A stretch of DNA of 61,587 nucleotides from Rhodoferax sp. (lineage in GTDB: Bacteria; Pseudomonadota; Gammaproteobacteria; Burkholderiales; Burkholderiaceae_C). Shown here one piece after another: positions 22,366 through 30,950 of this stretch (position 1 is the first letter of the stretch; every line of letters begins with the position of its first letter). Both the position numbers and the translations under genes were made by a program. The notes below the pieces were generated by a model. That model ran no database searches. It was not told where the DNA came from and saw only the letters and a program-made list of their open reading frames with translations. Where the stretch lies: positions 1-61,587 of the forward strand of contig VMTC01000077.1 in assembly GCA_013791765.1 (NCBI GenBank), in the 5' to 3' direction.

Positions 22366-23616
<1,251 letters not shown>

Positions 23617-23649
23617 GACGGCCGGTGCCTACTCGCCGCTATCTAAAAT

Positions 23650-23719
23650 AATAGCTGCCCACGCTTATTCGACGTGGGCTGCAGCCTGAAAAAGCATAAA
23701 TTAATTGGAATCTGAGTCC
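23650..23719 (+). repeat. Dispersed repeat copy e1 and left edge motif of TA cassette 1
   Basis: Copy e1 (AATAGCTGCCCACGCTTATT to CATAAATTAA, about 23650-23703) is followed by TAATTGGAATCTGAGTCC (23702-23719). The same pair occurs beyond the cassette: the edge motif at 24381-24398 as TAATTGGAATCTGACCCC, and the repeat at 24588-24643. The cassette is therefore bracketed by direct repeats. Confidence 0.75.
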
Positions 23720-23889
23720 ATTTGATTCCCAAAGTGGTGGGGCTGGCTTGCAAAGGCTGGGAGTTAGCGCGCCAATCCCAGCACTGATGCACTTGCCGCA
23801 AAAAACCGTGGTCTGTCCCCTATTTCCTCTGCTTTCAAAGATGACAACCGGCGTACAGTACTGCAGAGAAAACCCGAACAGGAGAAGGC

Positions 23890-24081
23890 ATGAACACCGC
23901 CGCACTTGATCCCCGCATTTCTGAATTCGATACCGAAGAACAACCGGCTAGTTATGACGCTTGGTTCCGCCTCAAGGTGCAAGAGGCCATCGACGATAAG
24001 CGGCCACGCATCCCGCACGACCAAGTCGCACACAGAGTAGAAAAAATCCTCTCTGAAATTCGCTCAAAAAAAGCTGCGTGA
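23890..24081 (+). CDS. RelB/ParD-like antitoxin
   Basis: The 63-residue protein (SEFDTEEQPASYDAWFRLKV core, then IPHDQVAHRVEKIL) resembles the short antitoxins paired with RelE/ParE toxins. I recognise it from the YDAWFRxKVQ and IPHDxV elements. It would bind the toxin and, as a dimer, autoregulate the operon. AGGAGAAGGC just upstream is a strong ribosome binding site. Its stop codon directly abuts the toxin start (TGAATG), the usual coupled order. The linked toxin is frameshifted. Confidence 0.75.
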   Translation: MNTAALDPRISEFDTEEQPASYDAWFRLKVQEAIDDKRPRIPHDQVAHRVEKILSEIRSKKAA

Positions 24082-24361
24082 ATGCTGCCAATTGTTTGGT
24101 CTGTTAATGCTGAGGACGACATTGATGAGATCGTCCGCTTTGTTGGCGAAAGGAATCCACTCGCAGCAGAAAAAACTGTGGAACCTACTGCACGATAGCG
24201 TTCTGCCCTTGTCTGATCATCCTTATTTGTACCGGAAAAGTGAGCGCGTTCCTGGTACAAGAAAAATAGTTGCCCACCCAAACTATGTTGTCGTGTATCA
24301 GGTTACTGCCAACGCCATAGATGTGCTTCGCGTGCTGCATTCCCGCCAACAGTATCCATAA
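24082..24361 (+). pseudogene. RelE/ParE-type toxin, frameshifted
   Basis: From ATG 24082 the frame reads MLPIVWSVNAEDDIDEIVRF, then VGERNPLAAEK, and stops after 38 codons at TAG. The rest of a RelE/ParE toxin continues in another frame: LLHDSVLPLSDHPYLYRKSE, then RVPGTRKIVAHPNYVVVYQV, ending with a VLRVLHSRQQYP-like tail at 24361. Dropping one A from the A6 run at 24170-24175 restores one frame of about 92 residues (AEKLWNLLHD). Possible explanations are an inactivating insertion, a homopolymer sequencing error, or slippage on the A tract. As read, the toxin is broken. Confidence 0.75.
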
Positions 24362-24405
24362 CGACAAAAATCAAAAAAGGTAATTGGAATCTGACCCCAA
24401 TTACT

Positions 24406-24554
24406 TGGGTGAAGCCTGCGCCGCGCTGGTGCGCGGCCTGCCCTTGCCCGCGCACATTGCGGCCCATGGCTTGACGCCCGAGATGCTGGCGCCGCAGCGG
24501 CTGGCGTGCGTGCAGCCGGTTCACCGTTTGGAAGTTGAACCTGTGTGTGCCTGA
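24406..24554 (+). pseudogene. Duplicated 3' end of the DAO-family oxidase gene
   Basis: Positions 24406-24503 are identical to 23471-23568 inside the upstream oxidase gene (98 bp). Beyond that the frame continues as ACVQPVHRLEVEPVCA and stops at 24554, unlike the upstream gene, which ends [15 protein letters not shown]. The fragment has no start of its own. It looks like the displaced 3' end of the original gene, left downstream of the toxin-antitoxin insertion, or the relic of a tandem paralogue. Confidence 0.8.
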
Positions 24555-24587
24555 GGCGTTCTGGGGTAGTCCGTTTAAATTAAAAAT

Positions 24588-24643
24588 AATAGCTGCTCAC
24601 GCTTATTCGACGAGGGCTGCAGCCCAATAAGGCATAAATTAAC
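24588..24643 (+). repeat. Dispersed ~55-bp repeat, copy e2
   Basis: It closely matches e1 (AATAGCTGCTCACGCTTATT...GGGCTGCAGCCC...CATAAATTAA) and lies at the same distance class behind the duplicated oxidase 3' end. This supports duplication of the whole segment around TA cassette 1. Confidence 0.75.
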
Positions 24644-24776
24644 TGAAATTTGAGCGCTTGGTTGAGTTCCAAAACCAAGCTGGCCTAGCGGCAGCGCATG
24701 AGGCAAGATGCGCAGCGCGGGTTAGGGCTTGTCCATGAATAAGCTGTGCATGTTATTTGTGGGCAGGTCCTTAGTT

Positions 24777-24929
24777 GTCGAGAAAAAATAACTTGAACAT
24801 TCCCCATCTTCCATACGAGCGCCATGCGGCGTTGCAAATCGCTTGTTTGGCTCGCCAAACGGCGCGCTTTGCGCCTTGCCTGGCATCTCGTCTGAAAGCG
24901 GGTCATTGTCCAATTTATTTTTTCTCGAC
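24777..24929. repeat. Inverted-repeat element upstream of pilA
   Basis: Arms 24777-24797 (GTCGAGAAAAAATAACTTGA) and 24909-24929 are inverted repeats matching at 19 of 21 positions, around about 110 bp. The surrounding spacer 24644-25274 (about 630 bp) has no convincing gene. Several open frames cross it, but none is family-like. Its end carries the pilA promoter. The arms could mark a small mobile remnant or a structured leader; this cannot be settled here. Confidence 0.55.
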
Positions 24930-25200
24930 TCCTTAGCGCAGCGCAACCCGCCATCTCCCCTGGATGAAATGCAGGTCGGCTTAGGCCTGGTGGCTGACCC
25001 AACCTGCGTGCCTTTGCCTGGGCAGAGTCGTTCAGATGGAGATCAAAGGGTCTGCGCGCAATTTTCAAGTTCGGCAAAGTGACGAAAATGGTCTGACAAA
25101 AACGTCACATCAGTGTGAACTGTTGACAAAAATCATTGCTTTGAAGCATCATTTGACGTTCAAAAGCCGTGAAAGTGGGTTTTTTAATGGCAGGGCAGCT

Positions 25201-25217
25201 TGGCACGAAAGCTGCTT
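25201..25217 (+). promoter_or_regulatory. Sigma-54 promoter of the pilin gene
   Basis: TGGCACGAAAGCTGCTT matches the -24/-12 consensus TGGCACG-N4-TTGCW, with GG at 25202-25203 and GC at 25214-25215. Type IV pilin genes are commonly driven by RpoN with PilR. The spacing to the pilA start (about 58 bp) is normal, and an AAGGAG ribosome binding site follows at 25264-25269. Confidence 0.85.
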
Positions 25218-25274
25218 TTACTTAAGTTCTCGTGTTGGTTTGGTTTTCATTTTTTATATATTTAAGGAGCATTC

Positions 25275-25748
25275 ATGAAGCGTTCTCTACAAAAGGGTTT
25301 TACCCTAATCGAGTTGATGATCGTCGTGGCGATCATTGGTATTTTGGCTGCGGTGGCTTTGCCGGCTTATCAGGATTACACGATCCGTGCCAAGATGTCT
25401 GAAGTTATTTTGGCCATGTCTGCGTGCCGCACCAGCATTACCGAGACCGTGCAGACGAATAATGCAGCCTCTTTGCCTAGCGCTGGAGACTGGGGTTGTG
25501 AGTCGTCAGTCTCAACTTCAAAGTTTGTCGCAAAGATTCGCACGAATGATGATGGCGCAGTTCAAGTGTTGACACAAGGTTTTGGGGATGCGACGATTGA
25601 CGGCAAGACTGTGCATCTGAGCCCAACCATAAATGGCGCTGCAATTACCTCCTGGCAATGTGGCCCTGGCGACTTGCCTCCCAAATATTTGCCTGGCTCA
25701 TGCCGCGACACAACGGTAGCCACCTTGACTGGTTTCTCGCCCACCTGA
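25275..25748 (+). CDS. pilA: Type IV major pilin
   Basis: The 157-residue prepilin has a short leader (MKRSLQKG), then the mature N-terminus [20 protein letters not shown] with the conserved Glu5, the hallmark of type IVa pilins cleaved by PilD. The C-terminal globular part contains a Cys pair suitable for the D-region disulfide (SWQCGPGD and PGSCRD). It forms the pilus fibre used in twitching, adhesion, DNA uptake and, in some Rhodoferax and Geobacter, electron-transfer-related surface growth; no specific role is shown here. It has its own sigma-54 promoter and a strong terminator-like hairpin just behind it. Confidence 0.95.
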
Positions 25749-25789
25749 TAGAAATCAAGTTTGTATTTTGAGTAATTCAGCTAGCGCTG

Positions 25790-25824
25790 AAAACAAAATG
25801 CCCCGCAAGGGGCATTTTGTTTTT
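25790..25824 (+). terminator. pilA terminator hairpin overlapping the next gene's start
   Basis: A 15-bp perfect stem (25790-25804 with 25809-25823) carries a GCAA tetraloop and ends in a T run. It has the form of an intrinsic terminator. The ATG at 25798-25800 of the following membrane-protein gene lies in the left arm, so the hairpin both limits read-through from pilA and would hide that start codon. Confidence 0.85.
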
Positions 25825-27504
25825 CTGGATGAAATACCGGTTGCCATCATTAGCGGCGTCCTTGTCCTATTTGCCTGGCTGCAACCACTTCATTTGTTGC
25901 CCTGGGTCAGTTTCCACAGCGAAGCCCTGGCTTTTTTTGCGGCTCTGCTGCTCGCCTGGCAAGCAGTCCTCGGCGCCGTGAAAACTCACAATATTGATGC
26001 GGTTCAATTGACTGGCGCAGCGTTTCCTGTCATTGCATTGGCGCTGTTAGTCTGGCTACAAACTACAACCGGGTTGATCGCTTTTTTTGGCGATGCTGTT
26101 GTCTTCACGCTGTACCTGATTCTCTGCGTCCTATGTATGGTGCTGGGCCGTGCCAGCAGCAGCAAATCAAACACCTACACAGTCCTGGGCGGCACCTTGC
26201 TAATGGGTGCATTTCTGTCAGCCATCGTCGCATCGGCCCAAGTTTTTGAGCTGTGGGAAGGCGCCAGTTGGATTAACCGCATGCCGCAACTACGCCGACC
26301 TGGCGGCAATATGGGACAACCGAATCATTTGGCGACCTTGCTCGTGATGGGCTTGGCCAGTCTGCTGTTCCTGTACGAGTCAAGAAAACTGGGGGCGCTG
26401 GCGTCGGCGCTGCTCGCGCTCACGCTGCTGACAGGCGTGGCCGCCACCGAATCCCGAACTGGTGTCCTGAGTCTGGCCCTGTTGACGCTTTGGTGGTTTG
26501 CCAAGCGCAAGTCACTGGGCTTGCGCCTTTCACCGGGGGTTGTGGCGGGTGCCGCCGTGGCATTCCTCGCTCTGTTCTGGTATTGGCCTAGTTTGCTGGC
26601 TGGTGTCATGCAAAGTGGCGGCGTCGACCTGCGGGTCAATACCAGTGTCGGGACGCGCTGGCTGGTGTGGCCACAATTGATCGAGGCGGTGCTGCAACGA
26701 CCTTGGTGGGGTTGGGGACTGGGCCAGGTGTCAACGGCCCATAACGCAGTGGTCAGCGCCTATCCGGTGAGTGAGCCCTTTACCTACGCCCACAACATCG
26801 TGCTGGACCTGGCCATTGGCATTGGCCTGCCGCTCACCGCGTTGATCGTGCTGGTGACCGGCGTTTGGCTCTGGCGTCGATTGAGCGCAGCCAGCCAGTT
26901 GGCGCCTTGGTACTGCCTGGCCTTGATATTGCCGGTGGCGGTGCATTCGATGTTGGAGTTTCCCTTTGCCTACGCGTACTTTCTGGTGCCCGTCATGTTC
27001 GCCGTTGGCGCGCTCGAGGGCGTCGTGAAAGCCAAACCCGCTTTTCGCCTGGGTGTGAAGCCAGCAGCTGCTATGTTGTTGGCAGCGACCGGACTGATGG
27101 CGTGGTCGGTGGTCGAGTACGTCGCGATCGAAGAAGATTTTCGAATTGTTCGCTTCGAGGCGCTGCACATTGGAACCACACCCGCCAGCTACCAGCGGCC
27201 CCATGTGATCTTGTTGACGCAACTGGACGCGCTGCTGCATGGCGGGCGCATCGTGCCCAAGCCTGGGATGAGCGCGGATGAAGTGGAGTTGGCCAGAAAA
27301 GTCGCTTTACGCTTCCCCTGGCCCGCCACCCAAAATCGCTACGCCCAGTCGCTGGCCCTCAACGGCAACCCGAACGAAGCGATCCGCCAGTTGCGGGTCA
27401 TGCGGGCTTTGCACGGTGAAAAAGCTTACGCGCAGATCAAGGCCGGGTGGGCCCAACTGGCCAATGAGAAATACCCGCAGCTGCAGGCTTTGAGGCTGCC
27501 TTAA
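25798..27504 (+). CDS. PglL/TfpW-like O-oligosaccharyltransferase, Wzy_C family
   Basis: The 568-residue polytopic membrane protein has about 12 hydrophobic segments. The region RRPGGNMGQPNHLATLL and the later ESRTGVLSL are typical of O-antigen ligase/PglL proteins. TYAHNIVLDLAIGIGLPLTA contains the conserved His of the large periplasmic loop. HSMLEFPFAYAYFLVPVMF is a PglL-type signature, and a soluble C-terminal part follows. Placed directly behind pilA, it probably transfers a lipid-linked glycan to pilin. The start is uncertain: ATG 25798 lies inside the terminator stem, and TTG 25768 is the only upstream alternative. Neither has a good ribosome binding site. Confidence 0.82.
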   Translation: MPRKGHFVFLDEIPVAIISGVLVLFAWLQPLHLLPWVSFHSEALAFFAALLLAWQAVLGAVKTHNIDAVQLTGAAFPVIALALLVWLQTTTGLIAFFGDAVVFTLYLILCVLCMVLGRASSSKSNTYTVLGGTLLMGAFLSAIVASAQVFELWEGASWINRMPQLRRPGGNMGQPNHLATLLVMGLASLLFLYESRKLGALASALLALTLLTGVAATESRTGVLSLALLTLWWFAKRKSLGLRLSPGVVAGAAVAFLALFWYWPSLLAGVMQSGGVDLRVNTSVGTRWLVWPQLIEAVLQRPWWGWGLGQVSTAHNAVVSAYPVSEPFTYAHNIVLDLAIGIGLPLTALIVLVTGVWLWRRLSAASQLAPWYCLALILPVAVHSMLEFPFAYAYFLVPVMFAVGALEGVVKAKPAFRLGVKPAAAMLLAATGLMAWSVVEYVAIEEDFRIVRFEALHIGTTPASYQRPHVILLTQLDALLHGGRIVPKPGMSADEVELARKVALRFPWPATQNRYAQSLALNGNPNEAIRQLRVMRALHGEKAYAQIKAGWAQLANEKYPQLQALRLP

Positions 27505-27567
27505 GGGCCATCGGGGCGGGCGAGTCCTGGGTCTTCAAGTCTGGAGCGGTGGCGCGCTGATTTTTAC

Positions 27568-27682
27568 AAAAATTTATATCAAATCAGCCTCTAGCCCTCG
27601 TATCTGTTGCCTGAGTAGCTACAAAAAATAAAGTGAACTGAGCGTGTGTTTGAGAGAAAAGGGGCCAGGCTCGGATTAAATT
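27568..27682 (-). repeat. Left flank of TA cassette 2: dispersed repeat copy f1 plus edge motif
   Basis: Positions 27568-27647 (TATATCAAATCAGCCTCTAG to GAACTGAGCGTGT) recur nearly unchanged at 28783-28861. Then 27661-27682 (GGGGCCAGGCTCGGATTAAA...) recurs exactly, 22 bp, at 28757-28778. The order is host repeat then edge motif on the left, and edge motif then host repeat on the right, all in direct orientation. The spacer 27505-27783 holds nothing else recognisable. Confidence 0.8.
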
Positions 27683-27783
27683 TTAAATTTGGATTAAATT
27701 GTTTGATGCGGTCACCCGGGTGGCCAAAGTGCCGGTAGGTTTTGGTAAGGTCTTTGACTGAGATTGCAATATCGTTGGCCATG

Positions 27784-28185
27784 TCAGGGTGCGTCCCGGT
27801 GATCTGCAATTTCCTCGTCAGCCCAGACAAGCAGCGAACGGATCACACGGCCAGCATCCTCACCCGATATCAGGTGGATGGCTTCGTCGTCGTAACGGAA
27901 CTCGACGGCATAAGGGGTTAGGCAGCGCAGGTCGTGCTCATCAATGTGCGGAACAACATCAATTTTTTTAAGCAAGCTTGCCAGCGCTTCCAAATCATGT
28001 GTGCGGCGAAACTCCAGGCCGTAAAGGCACATCACCGCTTTGAGTGCCTTTTCTGCGGCCTGTTGCGCATGGAAGCAGGCAACTGCAGGATCAACACCGG
28101 TCGCATTCAGCAGTGCCGCGAACGCTGCCTGATCGCGCTTGGCCAGGCGAATAAATCGCTCGGCTTCTTCACGCTGCGGCGTCAT
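27784..28185 (-). CDS. HEPN-domain toxin of a HEPN/MNT pair
   Basis: The 133-residue helical protein matches the HEPN family: EEAERFIRLAKRDQAAFAAL, CFHAQQAAEKALKAVMCLYG (the hallmark AAEKALKA helix) and FRRTHDLEALASLL. RRTHDL carries the Arg and His that are candidate active-site residues of HEPN RNases. It overlaps the 3' end of the MNT gene by 17 bp, the standard arrangement of HEPN/MNT toxin-antitoxin modules. In studied HepT/MntA pairs, the HEPN RNase is silenced by AMPylation from its MNT partner. ATG 28185 was chosen because upstream residues are not HEPN-like. Confidence 0.87.
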   Translation of the reverse strand: MTPQREEAERFIRLAKRDQAAFAALLNATGVDPAVACFHAQQAAEKALKAVMCLYGLEFRRTHDLEALASLLKKIDVVPHIDEHDLRCLTPYAVEFRYDDEAIHLISGEDAGRVIRSLLVWADEEIADHRDAP

Positions 28186-28492
28186 AGAGAATCTTGCCTT
28201 CCTTTTTTGCCCAGTAGGCGGCAGTGCCGGGCACCTGGCTGCGGCGCTCAAATTCTTGTGCAGAAACCAAAAGCAGATCGACACCAACGCCTGTATGCCC
28301 AATTGCTTCGCGCAGGCGAAGGTATTCCGTAGCTCTGTCAGTCAGCTCATTTTCAACGACCATCAAATCCAGATCCGAACCGTCGTTGGCATCTCCCCTG
28401 GCGTAGGAACCAAACAAAATAACCTTGGCAGGATGGCCAGCCCGTGCAACCAGGCGGCGTGTGGTTTGGGCGATATGTTCCGGACTCAACAT
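28169..28492 (-). CDS. MNT-domain nucleotidyltransferase antitoxin
   Basis: The 107-residue protein has the minimal nucleotidyltransferase motif VILFGSYARGDANDGSDLDL, i.e. GSYARGD followed by the DLD metal-binding pair. This is the signature of MntA-type antitoxins that AMPylate HEPN toxins. It is the first gene of the pair. ATG 28492 (MLSPEHIAQT) is preferred to a GTG one codon earlier. The catalytic Asp pair is intact, so the antitoxin is probably functional. Confidence 0.87.
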   Translation of the reverse strand: MLSPEHIAQTTRRLVARAGHPAKVILFGSYARGDANDGSDLDLMVVENELTDRATEYLRLREAIGHTGVGVDLLLVSAQEFERRSQVPGTAAYWAKKEGKILYDAAA

Positions 28493-28705
28493 CACTTACT
28501 CCTTTTCAGCGTGCACGACCAAAAGTTTCGCCGCAGCAAAGATCGTGACACTTTACATCAGAGCACATCAGCAAACGCATCCCAGCCTTGTCCAATGAGG
28601 TATGAGCCTGAACAGCGGCCTGTATTTCCAAGCAGAAATGAGCCTGAAGCCGCAATTTGAGGTGAATTGATGAGTGGGTTGATCATCCAAAGAATGGTGA
28701 TCAAC

Positions 28706-28756
28706 ATGGATGAGTCTCAACTCCGCACGATTGAACAAATTGAGAAAAGAGAGAAC
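28706..28756 (+). pseudogene. Possible remnant of a transposase/integrase start
   Basis: MDESQLRTIEQIEKREN resembles from memory the N-termini of IS481-like integrase proteins in betaproteobacteria. It is cut after 17 codons by the edge motif of TA cassette 2 at 28757. This is a weak identification based on a short match. The rest of the spacer 28493-29063 outside the repeats shows no gene. Confidence 0.25.
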
Positions 28757-28861
28757 GGGGCCAGGCTCGGATTAAATTCCATAAAAATTTATATCAAATC
28801 AGCCTCTAGACCTCGTACATATTGCCTAAGTAGCTATAAAAATAAATTGAACTGAGCGTGT
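28757..28861 (-). repeat. Right flank of TA cassette 2: edge motif plus dispersed repeat copy f2
   Basis: The edge motif (28757-28778) and the host repeat copy (28783-28861) mirror the order of the left flank while keeping direct orientation. Between the flanks lie the HEPN/MNT pair and about 260 bp of unrelated sequence. The following 28862-29063 leads into the next gene and shows only its ribosome binding site (AGGAGAAT). Confidence 0.8.
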
Positions 28862-29063
28862 CTTTGTGCTGATTGACCAGGACGCCATGCCCCCTCCTGG
28901 TCTGCCGGGTTCCCAGTCTGGCGGCCAGTACGCGGTGGTGCCCGTTACTGACCGGGCAGCGCGGCTGCGTTGCAGCGCTTGCGCTTTGTCAACACCACCA
29001 GGACCACGATCACCAGAATTGAAGGGCCAGCTTTATCGCTGACGTTCACTTCAGGAGAATATT

Positions 29064-30950
29064 ATGAAATTGAGTTTTCCGGTAAGATTTCAAAGGCTAT
29101 GCCGGGTGCCAGGGGTTGTAGAGGGTAGAGCCCGAGCGCGCTTGATGCTGGCTACGGCCGCACTTGCCCTGGGTGGCGTTTTTGCCGCGCCGCTTCAGGC
29201 GCAGGCGGTACTCCTTGAACCAACAGATGCCAATGTGGCTGCCGCCATTGCAGGGGGGCAGCACTATTTGTTCAACCAGTTCATCGAGACCGGTGGCGGC
29301 ACTGGCGGCTACTGGAACGATCCCAATTATGGCGGCCTCACCGCGACCGCTACCGCCGTTGCGGCCTTGGTCGAGTCGGGCATGATGAAGGACGCCGCCT
29401 ACAAAGCAAGGATCGAAAAGGGTATTGACTACATCAAGGCCCAGGTGAAGCTCGATGGCGGCATTTACACCTCCCACCACGCCTATGAAACCGGCCTGGC
29501 GCTGGTCGCGCTGGGCCTGTACGGCCAGGCCACCACCACCGATGCAGCCTACAAGACGATCGTGCGCAACGCGGTTGACTTCCTCAAGAGCTACCAGAAC
29601 ATCGAGGGATCAACCCGAGGCGGTGACTACGGGCCCAACGGCGAGGCCACCAGCACCAACACCACCGCCTGCGGCGCCAGCTACAAGCCCTACTATGGTG
29701 CCTGGGGCTATTACCCAGGCAATTCCAACGCCGGGAATAAGTGTGTTTCTGGGGGCGACCTGTCCAACACCCAGTTTGTCGTGATGGGCCTGTGGTACGG
29801 CTCGCGCTACCTGGGCGACGCCATCGACACCGCGCCGTGGGCCAAGGCTGTGCTTTACTTCCTGAAAAGCCAGCAGGGTGCCAGTGGCGGCTTCACGGTG
29901 TATGCCGGCGAGGGCTACGAATATCCCAGCATCACCGGAACGGCCGGCGGCCTGTGGATACTGTCGATGATTGGCCAAAAAGACACGGCTAAGCGCCTAC
30001 CGGCTGATACCAAAACCATGGCGCAAAACGCCATCGACTGGTATGGCGAGGCCAGCAATTACAGCTGGAACTACAACGGCTCCTACGTCTATTTCATCTA
30101 CGGCATGGCCAAGGCGCTGACAGCGACGATCGGCCCGGGCGCTTTGATCGGTACCCATGACTGGGCAGCTGACATGAAGTCCGAGGTGCTCAACAGTGCG
30201 TATCGGGTCCACACAGACGCCGTTACCGGCGGCGCTGCGGCCACCGACTCATGGGCCGGCTACACCGGGCTTGACCCTGACACCGTCGGCAAGACCTCCT
30301 GGGTACTGATGTCCCTGGCGTTTGCCAGCACCAGCACGGAGTCGACGGAGAAACTGCTGGCCCAGGAGGATGGCTTGGACAACGTGGTCAAGGGCCTGTT
30401 GACGCTGCACACCACTGACGGTGTAACCATCAGCGCGGCCGGCCGCAGCAATGTGGCCGCAGCCAATCTGGGTCAAAACGTGGTGTTGCCTATTGGGGCC
30501 GTCTCGTTCACGCTGAAAAATGTGGTGCCTGTGGGCGGCACTGCCGTGCTGTCGATCGCGCCACCGGCCGGCGCACTTGACCCAACCAACGCCAATAGCT
30601 TTGTCAATGCAGACGGCACGACCCTCAAGGCGGGGCTGAGCTGGTTCAAGATCACCGCAGGCGCATGGCAGGGCTTGTCCAGCGTACCGATCACGGTGGA
30701 TTTGGCCAAAGGTGTGATTCTGGTAACGCTCAAGGACGGCGGGCCGGAAGATGCAGACGGTGTTGCCGACGGCAAAATTGTCGACCCGGGCGCGCCAGGC
30801 TATGGGGCTGAGGCAGCGGCCGTTGTCACGAGCAGTGACAGTGACAGCGACTGGTTCGGCTGTAGCGTAGGCAATGGGCGCCCAGACCCGACGCTCCTGA
30901 TCCTGCTGGCCGGTGGTGTGGCTTACCTGGTGCGGCGCCGCCGCGATTAA
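29064..30950 (+). CDS. Exported alpha/alpha-toroid protein with JDVT-CTERM-like tail
   Basis: The 628-residue protein has a long signal peptide (about 1-46, AALALGGVFAAPLQAQA). It then has prenyltransferase/squalene-cyclase-like toroid repeats (about 55-480: AYETGLALVALGLYGQ, GGDLSNTQFVVMGLW, TGTAGGLWILSMIG, TVGKTSWVLMSLAFAS). A beta-type domain follows (about 490-590). The end is a tripartite sorting tail: WFGCSVGNGRPDP, a hydrophobic helix TLLILLAGGVAYLV and RRRRD, with Cys near residue 600. This tail resembles the JDVT-CTERM signal. The next gene, 7 bp on, encodes a matching glutamic intramembrane protease. The toroid lacks an obvious cyclase DXDD motif, so it is probably a surface or glycan-related protein rather than a terpene cyclase. 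Function unknown. Confidence 0.8.
   Translation: MKLSFPVRFQRLCRVPGVVEGRARARLMLATAALALGGVFAAPLQAQAVLLEPTDANVAAAIAGGQHYLFNQFIETGGGTGGYWNDPNYGGLTATATAVAALVESGMMKDAAYKARIEKGIDYIKAQVKLDGGIYTSHHAYETGLALVALGLYGQATTTDAAYKTIVRNAVDFLKSYQNIEGSTRGGDYGPNGEATSTNTTACGASYKPYYGAWGYYPGNSNAGNKCVSGGDLSNTQFVVMGLWYGSRYLGDAIDTAPWAKAVLYFLKSQQGASGGFTVYAGEGYEYPSITGTAGGLWILSMIGQKDTAKRLPADTKTMAQNAIDWYGEASNYSWNYNGSYVYFIYGMAKALTATIGPGALIGTHDWAADMKSEVLNSAYRVHTDAVTGGAAATDSWAGYTGLDPDTVGKTSWVLMSLAFASTSTESTEKLLAQEDGLDNVVKGLLTLHTTDGVTISAAGRSNVAAANLGQNVVLPIGAVSFTLKNVVPVGGTAVLSIAPPAGALDPTNANSFVNADGTTLKAGLSWFKITAGAWQGLSSVPITVDLAKGVILVTLKDGGPEDADGVADGKIVDPGAPGYGAEAAAVVTSSDSDSDWFGCSVGNGRPDPTLLILLAGGVAYLVRRRRD

Follow-up and report, generated by a model that had tools for sequence, protein, structure and literature searches.

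The 61,587-nucleotide stretch of Rhodoferax sp. DNA analysed here (assembly GCA_013791765.1, contig VMTC01000077.1), referred to below as the window, carries two small toxin-antitoxin (TA) cassettes located 3.3 kb apart. The presence of TA genes between transposon-end repeats and copied neighbour DNA, in this bacterium and in its relatives, suggests insertion by recombination between repeats, with no integrase of their own. A sequence-only reading had attributed a common architecture to the two cassettes; they do share it, and other genomes show it around TA modules of unrelated types. These observations bear on the wider question of what brings small chromosomal TA modules to new sites when no recombinase is evident. 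Genomes, loci and contigs are designated by G, L and C numbers.

Organization of the Two Cassettes

Cassette 2 comprises a HEPN-domain gene (27784–28302, minus strand; PF05168, E 6e-19), with a likely inner start at 28185, and its partner, an MNT nucleotidyltransferase gene (28169–28495, minus strand; PF01909, E 6.6e-12; PADLOC PDC-S09, E 4.7e-12). The presence of HEPN and MNT domains in adjacent genes indicates, by domain content, a putative HEPN/MNT toxin-antitoxin pair. It is enclosed by two class-B terminal repeats (TIRs; the classes are defined below), both on the plus strand (27661–27682 and 28757–28778), the first being located 107 bp 3' of the HEPN gene; as first seen from the letters of the sequence, these are exact 22-bp direct repeats. 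Outside them are two copies of a dispersed REP-like repeat (27568–27652 and 28783–28866), which has 40 matches at E ≤ 0.001 in the 4.17-Mb genome of this organism. The duplication of a dispersed repeat is thus as originally described; the copies had, however, been called near-identical, and are in fact 89.4% identical over 85 bp.

The G+C content of the cassette is 52%, compared with 61% in the window. No transposase gene is present inside cassette 2, and the two PF01797 matches of the Rhodoferax sp. genome are on contigs C93 and C90, so that the cassette is not an autonomous IS200/IS605 element. Terminal inverted repeats are also absent, the edge repeats being on the same strand, and the cassette is therefore not a classical transposon. 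A plasmid-borne cassette was considered and rejected (a single weak plasmid match, 35% identity). The HEPN protein has no matches at E ≤ 1e-20 in 298 other family genomes sampled, few of them from this genus. A HEPN/MNT homologue is present in G169 (L305), a genus member not among the matches of that search; it has 78% DNA identity over 495 bp, is split over two frames, and carries a class-A repeat where the window has class B. The repeat therefore seems to be no inherited part of the gene unit; it seems to come with the site, not with the gene.

Cassette 1 is linked to an oxidoreductase gene (22447–23616), the 3' part of which forms the first copy of a duplicated host segment (23471–23568, plus strand); in this copy the C-terminal type is the same as in the G195 orthologue. 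It is followed by a REP with the left class-A terminal repeat (23645–23719, minus strand; 88% identical to 24583–24654, motif with two mismatches), a PaaA2-type antitoxin gene (23890–24081, plus strand; PF21217, E 2.6e-13), a ParE-type toxin gene (24092–24361, plus strand; PF05016, E 1.3e-10) and the right class-A terminal repeat (24381–24398, minus strand), 20 bp past the parE stop codon. The 3' part of the host gene then recurs at 24406–24503 (plus strand); this copy begins 8 bases beyond the last C of the motif and is 100% identical to the first over 98 bp. The REP, too, is present again further downstream (24583–24654, minus strand), with a class-A repeat that has decayed, and over about 253 bp including the REP the duplication is 80% identical. 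Inside cassette 1, at 23800–23830 of the window, is GTGGTCTGTCCCC, which we take to resemble another repeat family near RAYT genes.

Edge Motifs Correspond to Transposase Ends

The edge motifs of the two cassettes are alike, with 13 of 18 bases agreeing by eye, and form two classes: A (AATTGGGGTCAGATTCCAATT, cassette 1) and B (AAAAGGGGCCAGGCTCGGATTAA, cassette 2). The motif GGGGYCAGRYTCSRATTA has 21 sites with at most two mismatches in the Rhodoferax sp. genome compared with 0 for a reversed-pattern control, and thus does not occur by chance; the looser pattern GGGGYCAGRNTCNNATT with two mismatches is noisy (123 sites vs. 26 in the control). Class A with one mismatch was detected in 54 of 150 family genomes, and a pattern spanning classes A and B in 54 of 60 genus genomes, the controls giving zero in all cases. 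An Rfam search of window positions 23400–29100 gave no match, and the motif was rejected as a known RNA.

Class-A inverted pairs about 840 bp apart enclose MARLPRL-type ORFs at L054, L058–L062 and L064, and the gene is also present at L063. A Y1 tyrosine transposase (TIRYT) gene with class-A inverted ends is located upstream of gltB in several genera. Homologues of TIRYT (E ≤ 1e-30) are encoded by 139 of 150 family genomes, and a similarity of at least 330 bits was found in 41 of 54 genomes with class A vs. 13 of 96 without it. The name TIRYT and the terminal consensus GGGGWSAS are from Di Nocera et al. (2013; PMC3733652). Class A (GGGGTCAG) meets this consensus, and class B (GGGGCCAG), with C at position 5, is one base outside it. 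Class-B ends around a transposase gene were found at one locus only, L313 (plus strand at 1244 and 1287, minus strand at 2061, around a PF01797 gene at 1330–2025); this TIRYT is 44% identical to that of the Rhodoferax sp. genome. By sequence, the cassette-edge motifs represent terminal repeats belonging to TIRYT transposases (RAYT-type Y1) and are dispersed through the genomes. As a TIRYT end, the motif is ruled out as a unique TA-cassette site.

According to the Pfam search, the Rhodoferax sp. genome encodes two Y1 transposases, neither of them in the window: one is at the gltB locus, and the other is flanked by a different palindrome, which excludes it as the source of class B. This search revealed no transposase fitting class B in the genome, where class B appears to be an orphan. 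PMC6006769 places 20 of 26 TIRYTs in TnpA-Y1 subclass 2.1 and assigns RAYT group 1 there; the TIRYT/TIRtron system thus probably corresponds to TnpA-Y1 subclass 2.1 (RAYT group 1).

The TIRYT gene upstream of gltB (L054, L058–L061, L063, L064, L081, L118, L122, L129 and L130) is mostly present in a single copy and looks like a domesticated gene. At L048, L050, L056 and L213, repeat dimers or singles lie within a uvrA-type frame of about 1900–2000 codons and leave it unbroken.

Distribution of the Motifs and Enrichment in TA Genes

The exact class-A core is present in at least 120 contig stretches, mostly from Comamonadaceae, Burkholderiales or “beta proteobacterium.” The 120 stretches listed contain 219 motif sites, including 58 at TIRYT/gltB loci, 51 in close inverted dimers and 110 that are either isolated (64) or members of same-strand pairs (46). 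This distribution does not support the initial idea of a cassette-specific motif. Of 29 neighbouring non-TIRYT pairs with a spacing of 350–3500 bp, 22 share a strand (p = 0.008, an optimistic value since the genomes are not independent). Within the genus, 11 of the 17 same-strand pairs listed enclose TA, Fic or AAA_14/DUF4143 genes, as judged by eye; of the remaining six, one holds a DUF1640-like ORF (by eye) and one an ammonium transporter, two cover host regions and two contain no recognised gene. Much of the prediction that such motifs would enclose small TA or defence cassettes therefore holds.

Pfam analysis of 91 ORFs by same-strand pairs identified, among others, HipA (3), Fic (3), HTH_3 (4), Gp49/HigB (2), nucleotidyltransferases (2) and AAA_14 (1) among the best 25 of 55 families; 127 ORFs by lone sites yielded a few TA families (best 25 of 103) and 127 distant ORFs none (best 25 of 118). 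Short ORFs of TA type, with HTH_3 scored as such, make up 20 of 104 located no more than 600 bp from a motif, lone or paired, and 5 of 94 more than 2.5 kb away (best 25 of 37 and 25 of 43 families, respectively; Fisher p = 0.005, or 0.010 with barstar counted in the control, both optimistic for non-independent genomes). The five distant ones are PIN (2), CcdB, YafQ and RelB. Flanking direct repeats scoring at least 20 were found for 14 of 33 TA cassettes and 10 of 300 control intervals, and those scoring at least 60 for 6 of 33 and 2 of 300; these ratios are biased upward, since the cassettes were picked as motif neighbours, some of them for a repeat already seen, and motif-holding intervals were excluded from the controls.

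Genes for AAA_14/DUF4143 ATPases recur between same-strand motifs in a TA-like manner (L007, 4808–5992; L012, 4097–5278; L247, 6641–7789).

Other Cassettes and Their Flanking Duplications

In the Rhodoferax sp. genome, L006 contains DUF2442 and a DUF4160-like partner between 122-bp copies of the vapC 3' end (DUF4160 and vapC assigned by eye), L007 and L012 contain AAA_14/DUF4143 genes, accompanied by VapBC in L012, and L003 contains ParDE, AbiE and other modules. Among relatives, with host genes named by eye, NTP_transf_8 lies between 355-bp copies of part of pepP (L131), Fic is found with a sugar-transferase copy (L112), a PIN toxin pair is flanked by 358-bp copies that comprise a transporter 3' end and the motif (L309), a Fic pair has 348-bp GAPDH copies (L315), and a BrnT/antitoxin pair with a TIRYT lies between copies of the ruvC 3' end (L313). 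Further cassettes of relatives carry DUF1902 (L116), TacAT (L119), BrnTA (L121), PemK (L113), and ParDE and HEPN (L305). In L003 (2400–10000, contig C8), TA modules are heaped among broken copies of sugar epimerase and sugar transferase genes, and similar fragments recur in G180, G192 and G195.

Flanking duplications had been predicted for such cassettes, and several have them. Copies of at least 80 bp are present in 15 of 21 re-examined loci, at 16 places (two in the window and 14 at other loci); they are 80–98% identical, and 83–90% in 9 of the 16. This is near the between-species level, the host gene DNA being 86% identical to that of G195. At 85–358 bp, and mostly diverged, the duplications are ruled out as normal short target duplications. 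In the wider set, a duplication of at least 80 bp at a distance of 300–4000 bp is found in only 11 of the 120 stretches listed. Many of the genomes are draft metagenome assemblies, in which repeats may be misassembled; the states with and without a cassette recur in separate assemblies.

At 9 of the 16 places, the outer (GGGG) edge of the motif is within 13 bases of a duplication end; the places were picked for the motif or the duplication, so that this is no genus-wide estimate. The duplicated segment is outside the motif in cassettes 1 and 2, L006 and L131, whereas in L113, L116, L304, L305 and L309 it contains the motif, whose outer edge forms its border. The seven exceptions are L003, L112, L115, L117, L119, L313 and L315; in L315 the copied GAPDH fragment ends instead 3 bases from the inner edge of the motif.

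Sites Without a Cassette and Insertions Without the Motif

The predicted empty sites were found in relatives. Downstream of wzy, as we call the O-antigen-ligase-like gene, G195 contains a single REP copy without HEPN/MNT genes, and G192 has neither a REP nor the HEPN/MNT genes. A capD-type gene is followed in L270 by one terminal repeat, compared with two same-strand copies around HigBA in L047; the single repeat of L270 reads the opposite way to those of L047. The oxidoreductase gene is directly followed by the next gene in G193, while inserts of about 2.3 kb and 4.2 kb are present in G203 and G153, respectively. They consist of cargo genes and copies of roughly 365 bp of the gene's 3' end, and lack the motif; of four cargo proteins scanned, one matched HNH_5, and the others had no Pfam match. 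This site (L165 and L166) is an insertion hot spot without the motif, and G193 represents the site without inserts. In L165 and L166 the oxidoreductase 3' end is repeated two to three times, with membrane-protein-like, HNH_5 and other ORFs between the copies.

The motif-free arrays of G153 and G203 indicate that the motif is not needed. A 1390-bp Xre-AbiEii block, common to G000 and G195 at 97% identity, likewise has edges without the motif. Together with the seven exceptional duplication places, these cases rule out the motif as an obligatory edge. A tight link between motif and cassette is countered by these arrays, in which similar long host duplications occur with other cargo and no motif.

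Possible Mechanisms of Insertion

Additive single-crossover insertion of TA-bearing DNA, via portable repeats or host 3' ends, is the best reading of these data, with chances that we put at about even. A segment already on the chromosome, in cassette 2 the REP-like repeat downstream of wzy, would pair with the same segment on incoming TA-bearing DNA, circular or tandem and perhaps derived from another species. A single crossover, presumably of the RecA type, would insert the TA module and leave the common segment duplicated on both sides. In cassette 1 the shared segment would comprise the host gene 3' end, the REP and the terminal repeat, and several TA modules of related genomes would have entered by the same route. 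The terminal repeats would act as portable homology and in many cassettes form the 3' edge, and selection may retain the TA genes, since their loss would harm the cell. On this reading, the HEPN/MNT pair of cassette 2 would be a horizontally gained module.

Additive crossover explains the long copies at the flanks and why they have diverged, as well as the arrays and the many different genes and sites involved. It is also favoured by the cassette-free sites, the same-strand bias, the motif edges at duplication ends (9/16 places), the class-A repeat of the G169 homologue, the link between class A and TIRYT similarity, the class-B ends around the TIRYT of L313 and the TA enrichment. Of the common mode of capture originally proposed, the shared architecture, the duplications and the cassette-free sites stand, but the motif as a cassette-specific signal does not. 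Several observations argue against an additive crossover. No circle, donor or recombinant was observed in the genomes compared; the downstream copy in cassette 1 diverges abruptly past its 98 identical bases, and the tail has no donor match among the loci compared. The motif-free arrays of G153 and G203, the motif-free edges of the Xre-AbiEii block, the seven exceptional duplication places, the small share of listed stretches with a duplication (11/120), the six listed same-strand pairs with host or unrecognised genes and the TA genes among far-control ORFs (5/94) also speak against it, and homologous recombination within 20–25-bp repeats would be expected to be rare.

Catalysis by TIRYT is an unlikely alternative, in which the enzyme would cut the outer edges of two same-strand repeats, free a single-stranded circle of a gene with one repeat and join it beside another repeat, giving integron-like strings. 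For IS608-type enzymes, excision via a single-stranded circular intermediate is described (PMC6006769). A TIRYT role is favoured by the motif edges at duplication ends (9/16 places), by the BrnT/antitoxin pair and TIRYT inside the ruvC duplication of L313 and by the folding of class A as a single-stranded hairpin (z -3.2). In line with such catalysis, same-strand repeats are often just 3' of genes (0–47 bp in many cases, by eye), and gene-repeat arrays occur at L202, L204/L308, L289 and L307. However, class B does not fold (z +1.0) and is an orphan in the Rhodoferax sp. genome, TIRYT ends are normally inverted, and the reversed polarity of L315, the other exceptions, the motif-free arrays and the edges of the Xre-AbiEii block do not fit. 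Moreover, TIRYT catalysis alone does not make duplications of 85–358 bp.

We also doubt that the cassettes reflect passive hot spots, i.e., tolerant intergenic sites downstream of genes in which TA genes and terminal repeats gather, with duplications produced by unrelated illegitimate events. REPs in general are mostly downstream of genes (PMC3733652), 109 of the 219 motif sites in the stretches listed belong to TIRYT loci or to dimers, TA genes and fragmented copies of host genes are heaped together in the L003 island, and duplications with other cargo exist. Against this stand the same-strand bias, the position of motif edges at duplication ends, the excess of direct repeats around cassettes (14/33 vs. 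10/300) and the change of repeat class on the HEPN/MNT homologue.

It is unlikely that TIRYT catalysis and recombination together form an integron-like cassette system of Comamonadaceae without an integrase, in which TIRYTs, so far regarded as serving only themselves and their miniature repeats, would also excise cassettes of a gene and one repeat (often TA, Fic or AAA_14/DUF4143) and insert them next to existing terminal repeats, and the strings would then spread between species by recombination in duplicated host ends. Tandem duplication within the genome around a previously resident TA gene, with a fork stalled at the repeat re-copying the upstream host segment, is very unlikely: segments do end at motif edges at 9 of 16 places, but the TA gene is absent from the downstream copies examined, no long 99–100% copy was seen except the 98 bases of cassette 1, and cassette-free sites exist.

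Comparison With Known Systems

Additive insertion at transposase ends dispersed through the genome and at duplicated 3' ends of host genes would offer a concrete, testable route for the spread of TA genes and possibly a second role for TIRYT/RAYT enzymes, and such edges could help in practice to recognise TA or defence genes acquired recently. In additive (Campbell-type) integration of a circular donor, the shared segment is duplicated on both sides. The cassettes resemble it in the duplicated segment on both sides of the new gene, and differ in their homology, in many cases a dispersed repeat, and in their cargo, in many cases TA genes. Integron gene cassettes carry small TA genes, each with a 3' repeat, in head-to-tail strings; all three features are found here, but the repeat is a transposase end and host DNA is duplicated. 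REPIN/RAYT systems consist of short repeats, including inverted dimers, tied to a single-copy Y1 transposase. The present repeats share this link and form inverted dimers about 44–60 bp apart, whereas the same-strand pairs lie 0.35–3.5 kb apart around foreign genes. One-ended mobilisation by IS91/ISCR elements, with one fixed and one variable end, carries neighbouring DNA along; such a combination of ends and the taking of neighbour DNA are seen here too, but here a Y1-type enzyme is concerned, which does not lie beside most of the cassettes seen.

The literature searched, in which subscription papers were few, contained no account of TA cassettes between TIRYT repeats. In E. coli strains, a REPtron locus was replaced by a toxin/antitoxin operon (earlier work cited in PMC6006769). 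That case likewise ties a RAYT-type locus to TA genes at one site, but involves gene loss and replacement at a single locus, without repeat-flanked cassettes. The TIRYT/TIRtron repeats are also comparable: class A fits GGGGWSAS, forms the inverted ends of Y1 genes and occurs, as in that system, as singles, dimers and clusters. Class B departs from the consensus by its C at the fifth position, and the sections of PMC3733652 cited here do not mention same-strand TA cassettes.
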